Assembly: GCF_003944755.1 (NCBI RefSeq)
Contig: NZ_RWGU01000045.1
Coordinates: 1-64,000 of the forward strand
Origin: Rhodovulum robiginosum
GTDB lineage: Bacteria > Pseudomonadota > Alphaproteobacteria > Rhodobacterales > Rhodobacteraceae
Direction of reading: 5' to 3'
DNA length: 64,000 bases
The notes under the pieces are model-generated. The model was not told the DNA's origin, searched no databases, and saw nothing but the letters and a program-made list of their open reading frames with translations. Of the stretch, positions 13,389-22,899 are shown one piece after another (the stretch's first letter is position 1; the number at the start of each line of letters is the position of its first letter). The position numbers were made by a program, and so were the translations under genes.

Positions 13389-13669
13389 GGCGCGCCGTCA
13401 CCGGGTCCGGTGCCGGCCTCCTCTTCGTAGGGGTCGCCTGCCTGGCACAGGCGCCGGGCCAGCAGCGCCGACATGACGATCAAGAGCGCCCAGGCGGCAA
13501 ACAGATAGGCGATCGTGGACGCTCGTGGCCCGGTTTCGGCGCCACCGGCCAGCAGCGGCAGCTGGAACAACACCACGCCCAGGAGCGGCAGCAGCAGCGC
13601 CATGTCGACCAGGCGCCGCCGGCGATAGCCCTGACGGGCCAAAAAGAGTGGAGCGCGCGGCCCCCTCAC
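13385..13669 (-). CDS. Small membrane protein coupled to the SSF kinase
   Basis: A 94-residue protein read from a GTG start at 13669 that overlaps the stop of the response regulator (GTGA). A basic N-terminus (FLARQGYRRRRLVD) precedes two hydrophobic segments, about residues 22-42 and 50-70, and an acidic tail (DPYEEEAGTGPGDG). Its own TGA overlaps the ATG of the kinase. The strict coupling between receiver, membrane protein and kinase suggests it belongs to the signalling complex. I do not recognise a named family. A later ATG (13603) is possible but would lose the coupling. Confidence 0.7.
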   Translation of the reverse strand: MRGPRAPLFLARQGYRRRRLVDMALLLPLLGVVLFQLPLLAGGAETGPRASTIAYLFAAWALLIVMSALLARRLCQAGDPYEEEAGTGPGDGAP

Positions 13670-14034
13670 GGCTCGACAAGCTCGCGCACCGAGGCCAGCA
13701 CCTCGGTATTCGAGAACGGTTTGGTCATGAAGCGGCTGGCCCCCAGCCGCTCGGCCATTTCGCGGTCCTTGCTCTGTCCCTTGGCGGTCAGCATCAGCAC
13801 GGGCAGCCCCGAAAGACCGGGCAAGGCCCTGATATCCTTTAGAATGTCAAAGCCCGATCGGCCCGGCAGCATGACGTCGAGGATCACGACGTCGGGCGCG
13901 CGCGCCTGCACGGCCTGCAGCGCGGTGCGACCGTCGGAATGGGTGTCCACGCGCCAGCCGTCGCGGGCCAGGATAAAGCGGATCGCCTCGATGATATTCG
14001 GCTCATCCTCAATCAGAAGGACATGCTTGCCCAT
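13666..14034 (-). CDS. Single-domain response regulator
   Basis: A 122-residue receiver domain and nothing more. It has the acidic pocket (IEDEP), phosphoacceptor aspartate in ILDVMLPG (D53), the switch threonine region MLTAKG, and the conserved lysine in TKPF. There is no DNA-binding or enzymatic output domain, so it should act by protein contact or as a phosphate sink. It is the first gene of a coupled trio with a small membrane protein and the SSF-type histidine kinase, its probable cognate kinase. ATG 14034 (MGKHVLLIEDE) is the natural start; the frame upstream is unlike receivers. Confidence 0.9.
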   Translation of the reverse strand: MGKHVLLIEDEPNIIEAIRFILARDGWRVDTHSDGRTALQAVQARAPDVVILDVMLPGRSGFDILKDIRALPGLSGLPVLMLTAKGQSKDREMAERLGASRFMTKPFSNTEVLASVRELVEP

Positions 14035-14104
14035 CCGTCTCCCCCCGGGTCGATGCGCCTTTTCGCGCTTGTTTACACGACTATCGTCGCAATCCCCAGC
14101 ACTG

Positions 14105-15415
14105 TCAAAAACCATCGGACAGGATCGAGGGTTCGCGCCGCGCGATGCAGTCGCGCCGGGGGCAGATGCGGCAGGAGGTGCCCACCGGCTGCACCGGCAC
14201 GCCGGGGGCCGCATCGGGGTCGTCCGGCAGGATCAGCATCGCGGCCTCCAGCACCGGCGGGCCGTCGAACCCAGCCGCGCCCGACGGCTGGCACAGCGCA
14301 TAGGTGACGAAGCGCTGCGAGACGCGCCCGGCGGTTTCGACCACGGCGCGCAGCGGCGCCATAGGCCGCGACAGCGCCTGGTAGAGCGGCCAGAGCGGAC
14401 AGGCCGCGCCGAAGCGCGGCAGCGCGAACCCCTCGACCGGCTTGCGGAATGTCAGCGTCCCCGAGCCGTCGCAGACGGCCAGCCCCACCGGCCCCGGCGC
14501 CATGTCCGAGGGCAGCGCCGCGAGCCGGCGAAAGACCGCCGCGGCATCGACCCCGAAGCGGCGCGCCAGATGCCCCGGTTCGGCCCCCACCGCGCGCACC
14601 TCCTCGGCAAAGGCGGCCAGCGGCATGTGCTCGGCATCCTGGCGGTAGCGGGTGAGGTAGGCCCGCGCGATGTCGCGCGCGGGCGCCGAGGTCAGGTCGG
14701 GGGCCGCGGCGATGATGCTGTCCAGCGACGGCGGCAGGCCGCGTTCCAGCGCGGCGACGTGATAGTCCTGCGCCCTGAGCCAGGCCTCGACCTCTTCCTG
14801 CGGCGAACTGCGGATCTGGGCATCGTCGCTGCTGTCGTCGAGATAGGCCACCAACGCCTGTGCCCCTTCGGCCAGCCGCTGGCTGTCGTCGCCGATATTG
14901 CGGTGGAACCGGCGCTGCCAGTCGGGGTCGATATCGTCGGTCTCGGCCAGAATCGCGGCCGTCGACCGGATCGCCGTCACGGTCGAGAGGACCTCGTGCA
15001 GCGACGCCGACAGGAACGGGTCGTGGGTCATCCGGTCGGTCAGCATCTCGACGGTGCGCTCCATGTCCGAGATGCGCCGCTGGCCGTCGGCCAGCAGCTG
15101 CGCCCAGCCCGGAAAACGGCCGGCGAACTCCTCGACCCGGTCGAGCTCTTCGGCGGCGGCCTGGTGGTCGGCGGCGGCCAGCCGGAGCGTCTCGATCAGC
15201 GCCGCGCCGGCGCCCTGGGTGAGCTGGCTCGCCTCGACCTCCAGCTCGCGCGCGATCTCGACCAGCAGCTTGCCGCCGATTCTGCGGCGGTTATGTTCGA
15301 TGAGGTTGAGATAGGAGGGCGAAATACCCACCCGGCGGGCAAGTTCGGCCTGGCGCAGCCCCAGAAAGGCCCGCCTCTCGCGTATCCGCGTGCCGGTAAG
15401 CGCACTGCGCGGCAA
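14105..15415 (-). CDS. ScfR-family short-chain acyl-responsive regulator (XRE HTH + DUF2083)
   Basis: A 436-residue regulator. Residues about 10-65 form an XRE helix-turn-helix (LGLRQAELARRVGISPSYLN). A long helical middle follows, and the C-terminal part is the DUF2083 domain of the ScfR/RamB/PrpC-regulator group, ending in the cysteine motif CRICPRRDCIAR. These regulators control acetate, propionate and glyoxylate-cycle genes in response to acyl-CoA esters. Start: TTG 15415 has a GGGAG ribosome site 7 bases upstream and gives a family-like N-terminus (MPRSALTGTRIRERR); another TTG at 15439 has weaker support. It is divergent from the ABC transporter operon, and the shared region carries repeated TTTGTAAA-like sites, so it probably controls both itself and the transporter. 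Confidence 0.87.
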   Translation of the reverse strand: MPRSALTGTRIRERRAFLGLRQAELARRVGISPSYLNLIEHNRRRIGGKLLVEIARELEVEASQLTQGAGAALIETLRLAAADHQAAAEELDRVEEFAGRFPGWAQLLADGQRRISDMERTVEMLTDRMTHDPFLSASLHEVLSTVTAIRSTAAILAETDDIDPDWQRRFHRNIGDDSQRLAEGAQALVAYLDDSSDDAQIRSSPQEEVEAWLRAQDYHVAALERGLPPSLDSIIAAAPDLTSAPARDIARAYLTRYRQDAEHMPLAAFAEEVRAVGAEPGHLARRFGVDAAAVFRRLAALPSDMAPGPVGLAVCDGSGTLTFRKPVEGFALPRFGAACPLWPLYQALSRPMAPLRAVVETAGRVSQRFVTYALCQPSGAAGFDGPPVLEAAMLILPDDPDAAPGVPVQPVGTSCRICPRRDCIARREPSILSDGF

Positions 15416-15467
15416 AGCGAAATCTCCCTTCTTTTCCAAGCACTTTCTGCATCGGCGAGATAAGTTG

Positions 15468-20881: not shown

Positions 20882-20889
20882 GCCGGGCA

Positions 20890-20913
20890 CGCCCCGCCCC
20901 GGCGGGGCGTTTT
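20890..20913 (+). terminator. Intrinsic terminator after the ABC operon
   Basis: CGCCCCG (20890-20896) pairs with CGGGGCG (20903-20909) and is followed by TTTT. It lies just past the LivF-type stop and 37 bp before acs, so acs may depend on read-through or its own promoter. Confidence 0.7.
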
Positions 20914-20949
20914 CACGAATAGGTCCACCCAGTCAAAGGGATCACGGAG

Positions 20950-22899
20950 ATGACTGACCAGATTTACCCGCCGAGCGACGACTTCGCAAAGGCCGCCCAT
21001 ATCGACGCGGCAAAGTACGAGGACATGTACAAGGCCTCGATCGAAGACCCGGAAGGCTTCTGGCGCGAGCATGGGCGTCGGATCGACTGGATCAAGCCCT
21101 ACACCGAAGTCAAGAACACCAACTTCAAGATGGGCGAGGTCGAGATCCACTGGTTCCGCGACGGCACCCTCAACGTGGCGGCCAACTGCATCGACCGGCA
21201 CCTGGCCAAGCGCGGCGACCAGACCGCGATCATCTTCGTCCCCGACGAGCCGGGCGACCCGGTCAAGCACATCACCTATCGAGAGCTGCACGAAAAGGTC
21301 AATCGCATGGCCAACGTCCTGCTAAGCCAGGGCGTGATGCGCGGCGACCGGGTGGTGCTCTACCTGCCGATGATCCCCGAGGCGGCCTATGCGATGCTGG
21401 CCTGCGCGCGGATCGGCGCGATCCATTCGATCGTCTTCGCGGGCTTCTCCTCGGACGGTCTGGCCAACCGCATCAACGATTGCGGCGCCAAGGTCGTGAT
21501 CACCGCCGACACCGCGCCGCGCGGCGGGCGCAAGACCAACCTCAAGTCGAACACCGACGCCGCGCTGCTGCACTGTTCCGACAAGGTGCGCTGCATGGTG
21601 GTGAAACACACCGGCGACCAGACCACCTGGATCGACGGGCGCGACGTGGACGTGCTGGCGCTGATGGAGCATGCCAGCCCCGACTGCCCGCCGCGCGAAC
21701 TGGCCGCCGAGCATCCGCTCTTCATCCTTTACACCAGCGGAAGCACCGGCAAGCCCAAGGGCGTGGTGCATTCCTCGGGCGGTTACCTCGTCTTTGCCGC
21801 GATGACGATGGAATACACCTTCGACTATCACGAGGGCGACATCTTCTGGTGCACCGCCGATGTGGGCTGGGTCACCGGCCATAGCTACATCGTCTACGGG
21901 CCGCTCGCCAACGGGGCGACCACGGTGATGTTCGAGGGCGTGCCGACCTACCCCGATGCGGGCCGCTTCTGGCAGGTCTGCCAGGATCTGAAGGTCAACC
22001 AGTTCTACACCGCGCCGACCGCGATCCGCGCGCTGATGGGCCAGGGCCCGGAATGGGTGGACAAGTACGACCTCTCCAGCCTCAAGGTGCTCGGCACCGT
22101 GGGCGAGCCGATCAACCCCGAGGCGTGGAACTGGTACAACGACCACGTCGGCAAGGGCAAATGCCCCATCGTCGACACCTGGTGGCAGACCGAGACCGGC
22201 GGCCACCTGATCACCCCCCTGCCCGGCGCGACCCCGGCCAAGCCCGGCTCGGCCACCAAGCCGTTCTTCGGCGTGCAGCCGGTCATCCTCGAGCCCGAAA
22301 GCGGCAAGGAGATCACCGAGACCGAGGCCGAGGGCGTGCTGTGCCTGAAAGACAGCTGGCCGGGCCAGATGCGCACCGTCTGGGGCGACCACGACCGCTT
22401 CCAGGACACCTATTTCTCGCAGTACAAGGGCTACTACTTCTCCGGCGACGGCTGCCGCCGCGACAAGGACGGCTATTACTGGGTCACAGGCCGGGTCGAC
22501 GACGTGATCAACGTCTCGGGCCACCGGATGGGCACCGCCGAGGTGGAAAGCGCGCTGGTCGCGCATGCCGCCGTGGCCGAGGCCGCCGTGGTCGGCTACC
22601 CGCACGAGATCAAGGGCCAGGGCATCTACGCCTATGTCACGCTGATGAACGACGTCGAACCCACCGCCGAGCTGAAGAAGGAGCTGGAAAAGTGGGTCCG
22701 CACCGAGATCGGCCCGATCGCCAAGCCCGACCTGATCCAGTGGGCGCCGGGCCTGCCCAAGACGCGCTCGGGCAAGATCATGCGCCGTATCCTGCGCAAG
22801 ATCGCCGAGAACGATTACGGCAGCCTGGGCGACACCTCGACGCTCGCCGACCCCTCGGTGGTCGACGACCTGATCGACAACCGCATGAACAAGGCCTGA
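20950..22899 (+). CDS. acs: Acetyl-CoA synthetase (AMP-forming)
   Basis: A 649-residue ligase that activates acetate to acetyl-CoA through acetyl-AMP. It shows the ATP-binding motif [10 protein letters not shown] (262-271), the adenylate motif WWQTETGGH, the hinge region and the C-terminal RSGKIMRR. K609 is the lysine that is reversibly acetylated in enteric Acs (the same number as in Escherichia coli). The length and the [12 protein letters not shown] segment fit acetyl- rather than propionyl-CoA synthetase. It lies 68 bp after the ABC transporter operon and is followed by a strong terminator. Its placement beside an ScfR-type regulator and a CrbS-like kinase matches known control of acs by these regulator types. 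Confidence 0.95.

Follow-up and report, generated by a model that had tools for sequence, protein, structure and literature searches.

Which substrate does an ATP-binding cassette (ABC) importer of the HAAT type carry when its genes stand between acetate-type regulators and acs, the gene for an AMP-forming acetate-CoA ligase? This question is raised by a 64,000-nucleotide stretch of Rhodovulum robiginosum DNA (positions 1 to 64,000 of contig NZ_RWGU01000045.1, assembly GCF_003944755.1; hereafter the window), which comes from a genome of 3.7 Mb in 51 contigs. Acetate uptake is credited to SatP. It has also been credited to the symporters MctC, MctP and ActP (PMC5113046; cited here, like all papers below, from excerpts) and to diffusion (PMC5715377). 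An earlier note on the window had proposed that the island encodes a carboxylate importer, and this proposal is supported and strengthened by the analyses reported here. Judged from its sequence and genomic surroundings, the importer is probably an ATP-driven, HAAT-class scavenger of acetate, and possibly of other C2–C3 monocarboxylates too, under dual-input control. It looks like a known importer class in a seemingly new role and not like a new kind of machine.

All genes that the earlier note had placed in or beside the island (kinase, receiver, ScfR-type regulator, divergent five-gene HAAT operon and acs) were recovered with open frames by open reading frame (ORF) calls and by family scans using Pfam and NCBIfam models with curated cut-offs. 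On the forward strand, one operon encodes a solute-binding protein (SBP; 15635..16990, PF13458 246 bits), two BPD_transp_2 permeases, one UrtB/LivH-like (17094..18125, PF02653 125 bits) and one UrtC/LivM-like (18130..19341, PF02653 130 bits), and two ATPases, UrtD/LivG-like (19355..20113) and UrtE/LivF-like (20126..20881). The SBP more likely starts at 15641 than at 15635, given the distance from GGGAGG and the start used by most relatives. Permeases and ATPases were present in all 60 of the 60 orthologous loci checked. The same five-subunit layout is found in LivJHMGF and UrtABCDE, and the family-level likeness to Liv and Urt subunits would fit an ordinary importer of branched-chain amino acids or urea whose place beside acs is accidental. 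However, the subunits remained below the cut-offs for both Urt (score/cut-off in bits: SBP 67/493, permeases 193/250 and 107/296, UrtD 239/304, UrtE 204/286) and Liv (SBP 33/477, LivH 103/379, LivM 80/366, LivG 228/362, LivF 194/441), including the ATPases, whose nearest families were UrtD/LivG and UrtE/LivF. In further contrast to Liv and Urt systems, the window importer carries a Tat-type (twin-arginine translocation) signal and is linked to acs and to acetate-type regulators. The proposed Tat export of the SBP held in that the twin Arg is invariant in 21 aligned orthologues, but the Pfam Tat model scored 19.9 against a cut-off of 22.7. Within its own genome, the second-best match to the SBP was only 27–28% identical, and the nearest named relatives, from Rhodovulum, were at most 91% identical.

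The acs product (20950..22899, forward strand, 649 aa), which is the single match in its own genome at E 1e-200, passed the equivalog TIGR02188 (1013 bits, cut-off 725) and failed two propionate-CoA ligase models (627 and 586 bits, cut-offs 955 and 827). This outcome for the linked enzyme favours acetate as the substrate, and acetate is the best single guess. The same scores bear on a short-chain carboxylate importer that prefers propionate, acrylate or butyrate, with the adjacent ligase acting on the same acid. Such a preference has some footing in the ScfR relatives that answer to other acyl-CoAs, as RamB of Paracoccus responds to beta-methylmalyl-CoA and PccR controls propionyl-CoA carboxylase (PMC10370305, PMC12632250), but with a ligase that failed both propionate models we regard it as improbable.

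The arrangement is widely conserved. In a sample of 149 genomes of the order Rhodobacterales, an SBP orthologue (threshold E 1e-40) was present in 109, the window's own included, with one match per genome except in G133, where the gene is split in two. Gene maps of the 108 other orthologous loci showed the ScfR gene facing the HAAT operon, together with kinase and receiver homologues on the ScfR strand, in 90 loci, ScfR alone facing it in 5 and none of this trio in 13. Since it is kept in 90 of 108 orthologous loci, the pairing of regulator and HAAT operon is more than chance. Directly behind the HAAT operon, acs was found in 44 of the 108 loci (5 of the 44 cut short) in addition to the window. 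A second set of 80 named loci, some of which are also among the 108, has acs in this place in 42 cases, with 12 others reaching a contig edge and 26 lacking acs there. The earlier note had named the absence of acs from this transporter in relatives as the finding that would overturn its proposal; the association recurs, but acs is missing from this place in 58 of the 108 loci. This last number would fit a chance neighbourhood of an ordinary Liv or Urt importer, whereas the conserved linkage, the site shared with acs genes (see below) and the subunit scores speak against it, so that we consider such an importer highly improbable. A chromosome labelled Devosia keeps the entire arrangement, with a kinase 54% and a ScfR 34% identical to those of the window. 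Of 289 genomes of the class, 40 contain the SBP, including four from the family to which the window belongs. In G133 (G133:C1:2183635-2184662, locus L099), the permeases, the ATPases and acs are still in place beside the two pieces of the SBP gene, and ScfR is not matched in this genome at E 1e-60.

The spacer between the ScfR gene and the SBP gene contains a two-box site. In the window, TTTACA-N26-TTTACA lies at 15468..15505 on the forward strand and is the only perfect copy in the genome. A genome scan allowing up to two mismatches returned 20 sites and 19 for the reversed pattern; weaker genome matches therefore mean nothing. All 96 ScfR–SBP spacers examined carry TTTACA reading towards the operon, mostly as pairs 32 bp apart. 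With at least 11 of 12 matches and a spacing of 32, the pair was present in 94 of these 96 spacers compared to 2 of 2056 other upstream regions (400 bp each) from these loci, and it was found in 70 of the 80 named loci. When spacings of 31–33 were admitted, the pair preceded 96/96 HAAT promoters facing ScfR, 8/12 HAAT promoters without the trio, 22/40 acs genes standing elsewhere in HAAT genomes (the 40 include SSF-linked G049 and ScfR-divergent G016, both without the pair), 20/30 acs genes in HAAT-less genomes and one of two acs genes divergent from the trio in such genomes. None of the 44 acs genes inside HAAT operons had it, as expected for an internal gene. ScfR itself matched at E 1e-60 in 142 of the 149 genomes, and the acs regions outside HAAT operons that were available for four of the seven other genomes (G006, G018, G081 and G133) contained no pair reaching 11 of 12 matches at spacings of 31–33. 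The pair thus largely tracks ScfR across genomes, and its position, form and distribution lead us to infer that ScfR binds it. Shared control of the HAAT operon and acs, as proposed in the earlier note, now has a candidate cis-element behind it. About 27 bp past the two boxes follows a promoter-like sequence, TTGCCA-N18-GATAAT (15533..15562, forward strand), which matches a sigma-70 consensus in 10 of 12 positions by consensus scan only; the scanned region held 3 such sites compared to a mean of 1.0 after shuffling. Separately, an inverted repeat, GCAC-N(2-8)-GTGC, is present in 46 of the 96 spacers (37 with TTTGCAC; e.g., L040 and L044) compared to about 1.6 in shuffles. It is not present in the window and might be the site of another regulator.

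Two alternative carriers, HAAT and an SSF symporter, stand beside acs in the order. Acs regions were fetched from 32 of the 40 HAAT-less genomes, and in about 20 of the 32, acs lies with genes for DUF4212, an SSF symporter, a DUF294/CBS protein, an unassigned protein and an exonuclease-domain protein. An adenylate-kinase-like gene beside acs in 16 of the 32 (e.g., L149, L150 and L155) could recycle the AMP made by Acs. The SSF family concerned, TIGR03648 (VC_2705-type), was detected in 87 of the 149 genomes. ActP-family matches (E 1e-100) occurred in three genomes, all without HAAT and none above the curated cut-off. Both carriers were present in 52 genomes, HAAT only in 57, SSF only in 35 and neither in 5 (3 once ActP is counted), corresponding to an odds ratio of 0.13 (p 1e-5), and the association held with one genome per genus (median p 3e-5). 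With a limit of 8 kb, 35 of the 150 acs genes listed have HAAT nearby, 66 have SSF and 49 have neither. In 11 of the 23 genomes with two listed acs genes, each carrier has an acs gene beside it. In another 11, one acs gene adjoins SSF and the other stands alone, and in a single genome one adjoins HAAT and the other stands alone. Seven genomes that contain both carriers (G001, G045, G049, G093, G143, G145 and G148) have HAAT and SSF about 25–50 kb apart on the same contig.

A quick tree was built of 72 acs proteins, of which 40 are HAAT-linked, 24 SSF-linked and 8 neither. The HAAT-linked label requires 7 changes on it, and branches with an SH-aLRT support of at least 95 force 4 or more of them. 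That acs has switched neighbours repeatedly is the strongest indication that HAAT and SSF serve the same enzyme. In addition, the trio is directly divergent from acs in two HAAT-less genomes. In the known cluster acs-yjcH-actP, acs stands beside the ActP carrier. The window island resembles this cluster and acs-DUF4212-SSF in that an acetate-CoA ligase gene adjoins its own carrier, but the carrier is a symporter in the ActP and VC_2705 systems and an ATP-driven binding-protein importer in the window.

The AlphaFold model of the SBP (mean pLDDT 79) has as fold neighbours, by their structure titles, HAAT-class proteins for urea, aromatic acids, amides, a 2-oxo acid and amino acids; solved neighbours include AmiC with acetamide, a methyl-2-oxo acid protein and an L-pyroglutamate protein. 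As neighbours of this fold bind carboxylates, carboxylates without an amino group are within its reach, and with several ligand types among the neighbours, the fold search did not settle the substrate. These structures, solved with urea, acetamide, aromatic acids, a methyl-2-oxo acid and L-pyroglutamate, would also suit a pump that imports another small molecule yielding acetate or acetyl-CoA, such as acetamide, lactate, pyruvate or another 2-oxo acid, with Acs recovering the acetate. Against this stand the 108 gene maps, in which the enzyme gene found again and again right after the ATPase genes is acs (only some neighbour clusters are annotated, and a rarer partner could be missed), and the same site in front of acs genes standing elsewhere; we consider import of such a molecule rather unlikely, though the most credible of the alternatives. 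At the pocket level, we take Glu226 of LivJ to be the residue that holds the amino group of the ligand. In a low-identity alignment with E. coli LivJ, this position falls on Leu296 of the SBP, which is invariant in 21 aligned orthologues, and a Ser-rich stretch lies at the place matching the LivJ carboxylate site. The Leu would argue against an amino acid ligand of the LivJ kind, but this pocket clue is suggestive only, because hhalign aligns the SBP only weakly with LivJ (probability 37%) and does not reach Glu226. Five of the six SBP paralogues from the same genome look mis-framed, the longest open frame having been taken, and were left unused. A lactate ABC system in Phaeobacter, assigned to this class in GapMind, would favour import of another small molecule, but it was found neither in the excerpted main text of PMC9007349 nor in a literature search.

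On the reverse strand, the island continues with the three regulatory genes. The ScfR-type (short-chain acyl-CoA) XRE regulator (14105..15439, 444 aa) contains HTH_3 and PF09856 (49 bits, cut-off 24), and its Cys residues 323, 347, 423, 426 and 431 are invariant in 16 aligned orthologues. With the helix-turn-helix, PF09856 and the Cys set for a predicted Fe-S cluster, it is by sequence a member of the ScfR group. It shares with RamB, PccR and MccR the XRE-type helix-turn-helix, the ScfR C-terminal domain, the invariant Cys set and a two-box site, and is set apart from them by its tie to a two-component pair. ScfR sites are commonly two near-identical boxes and RamB binds CoA esters; class 2 RamB has an 18-bp spacer, unlike the box pair in the window (PMC10370305). 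The same source notes, and sets aside, a Paracoccus ScfR, Pden_1785, that is clustered with two-component genes.

The earlier note had described a two-component system in the island and, on its other side, a CrbS-like SSF histidine kinase. Kinase and receiver are both present, but the response regulator (13666..14037, reverse strand, 123 aa) is a bare, stand-alone receiver (PF00072 96.5 bits, no further domain), and the kinase (10695..13388, reverse strand, 897 aa) lies outside the span of 13666–22899 given for the island. Pfam scans of the kinase returned HisKA and HATPase_c and no SSF domain. However, a profile of 18 relatives matched a solved 606-aa histidine-kinase chain, 10ed_A, over residues 3–613 (E 1.2e-101), and hhalign against the SSF profile of the alternative carrier gave a probability of 87% over 385 columns; an SLC5-type membrane sensor domain is therefore likely. 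The likeness to CrbS/CrbR accordingly extends to such a sensor and to acs near the kinase or under its control. CrbS, in contrast, is a kinase with a C-terminal receiver and has the LuxR-type partner CrbR (PMC5715377, PMC9100948), whereas the window kinase is not a hybrid and its partner is the bare receiver.

Downstream of the island, a gene for an AMP-dependent acyl-CoA ligase (23178–24701) is convergent with acs; a relative lies near HAAT in 14 fetched loci and in none of 32 HAAT-less loci. An SBP and a permease resembling an NMT1/THI5-type ABC importer, judged by eye from the ORFs, follow at 24931–26893.

Taken together, these features suggest the following working model. The periplasmic SBP would capture acetate, the HAAT pump would import it at the cost of ATP, and Acs, encoded right behind the pump, would trap it as acetyl-CoA. 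The SLC5-type kinase and its receiver might sense acetate outside, and ScfR might read short-chain acyl-CoA inside and bind the TTTACA pair (spacing 32 bp) that lies upstream of the promoter. A site of this kind also precedes many acs genes in relatives, where acs is either on its own or next to an SSF carrier that replaces or accompanies HAAT.

Several observations weigh against acetate scavenging under a common regulon. Acs is not next to HAAT in the 58 loci mentioned above, and 6 more end at a contig edge. The site is missing at 18/40 acs genes elsewhere in HAAT genomes, 10/30 in HAAT-less genomes, 4/12 HAAT promoters without the trio and one of the two trio-divergent acs genes, and a pair at spacing 30 occurs in G006, where ScfR gave no match at E 1e-60. 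Six named Hoeflea and Cohaesibacter loci (one with a short upstream flank) have neither trio nor site nor acs nearby, and the neighbours of these importers (cytochrome bd and others) gave no substrate clue. Shuffling SSF labels within genera gave a mean of 6.0 genomes with neither carrier compared to 5 observed, with 1315 of 5000 shuffles as low; the complementarity thus lies between and not within genera, and shared descent of genera may account for the cross table. The VC_2705-type SSF is itself only a presumed acetate carrier. Finally, acetic acid crosses membranes unaided (PMC5715377), so that an ATP-driven importer would pay only at very low acetate.

Within the open-licence literature searched (most subscription papers lay outside this scope), no HAAT-type ABC importer named for acetate was found. 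The words "acetate ABC transporter" occur in one paper, in the legend of a figure that deals with ethanol oxidation in an Acetobacter model (PMC6915089). In Ruegeria, transporters are annotated as branched-chain amino acid systems and the symporter SPO1810 is marked "acetate, putative" (PMC9870897, PMC4334477), and the excerpts of a Ruegeria transporter transposon-mutant paper contain no mention of lactate, propionate or branched-chain (PMC10130141). In a Cereibacter carbon-source study, a five-gene ABC transporter beside gmor was dispensable for 3-hydroxypropionate (PMC12632250).

Almost three in four of the genomes sampled from the order have the gene set. The analysis offers a hypothesis on the substrate of this conserved importer and a candidate site for a ScfR subgroup that has been little studied. 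With about even prospects of being right, one may go further and propose that most Rhodobacterales take up trace acetate by a HAAT importer that substitutes for or backs the SSF carrier under one ScfR/SLC5-kinase regulon, and that some of the "branched-chain amino acid transport" of marine roseobacters is acetate scavenging. If true, these bacteria would spend ATP on scavenging traces of acetate through a type of pump usually assigned to amino acids or urea.

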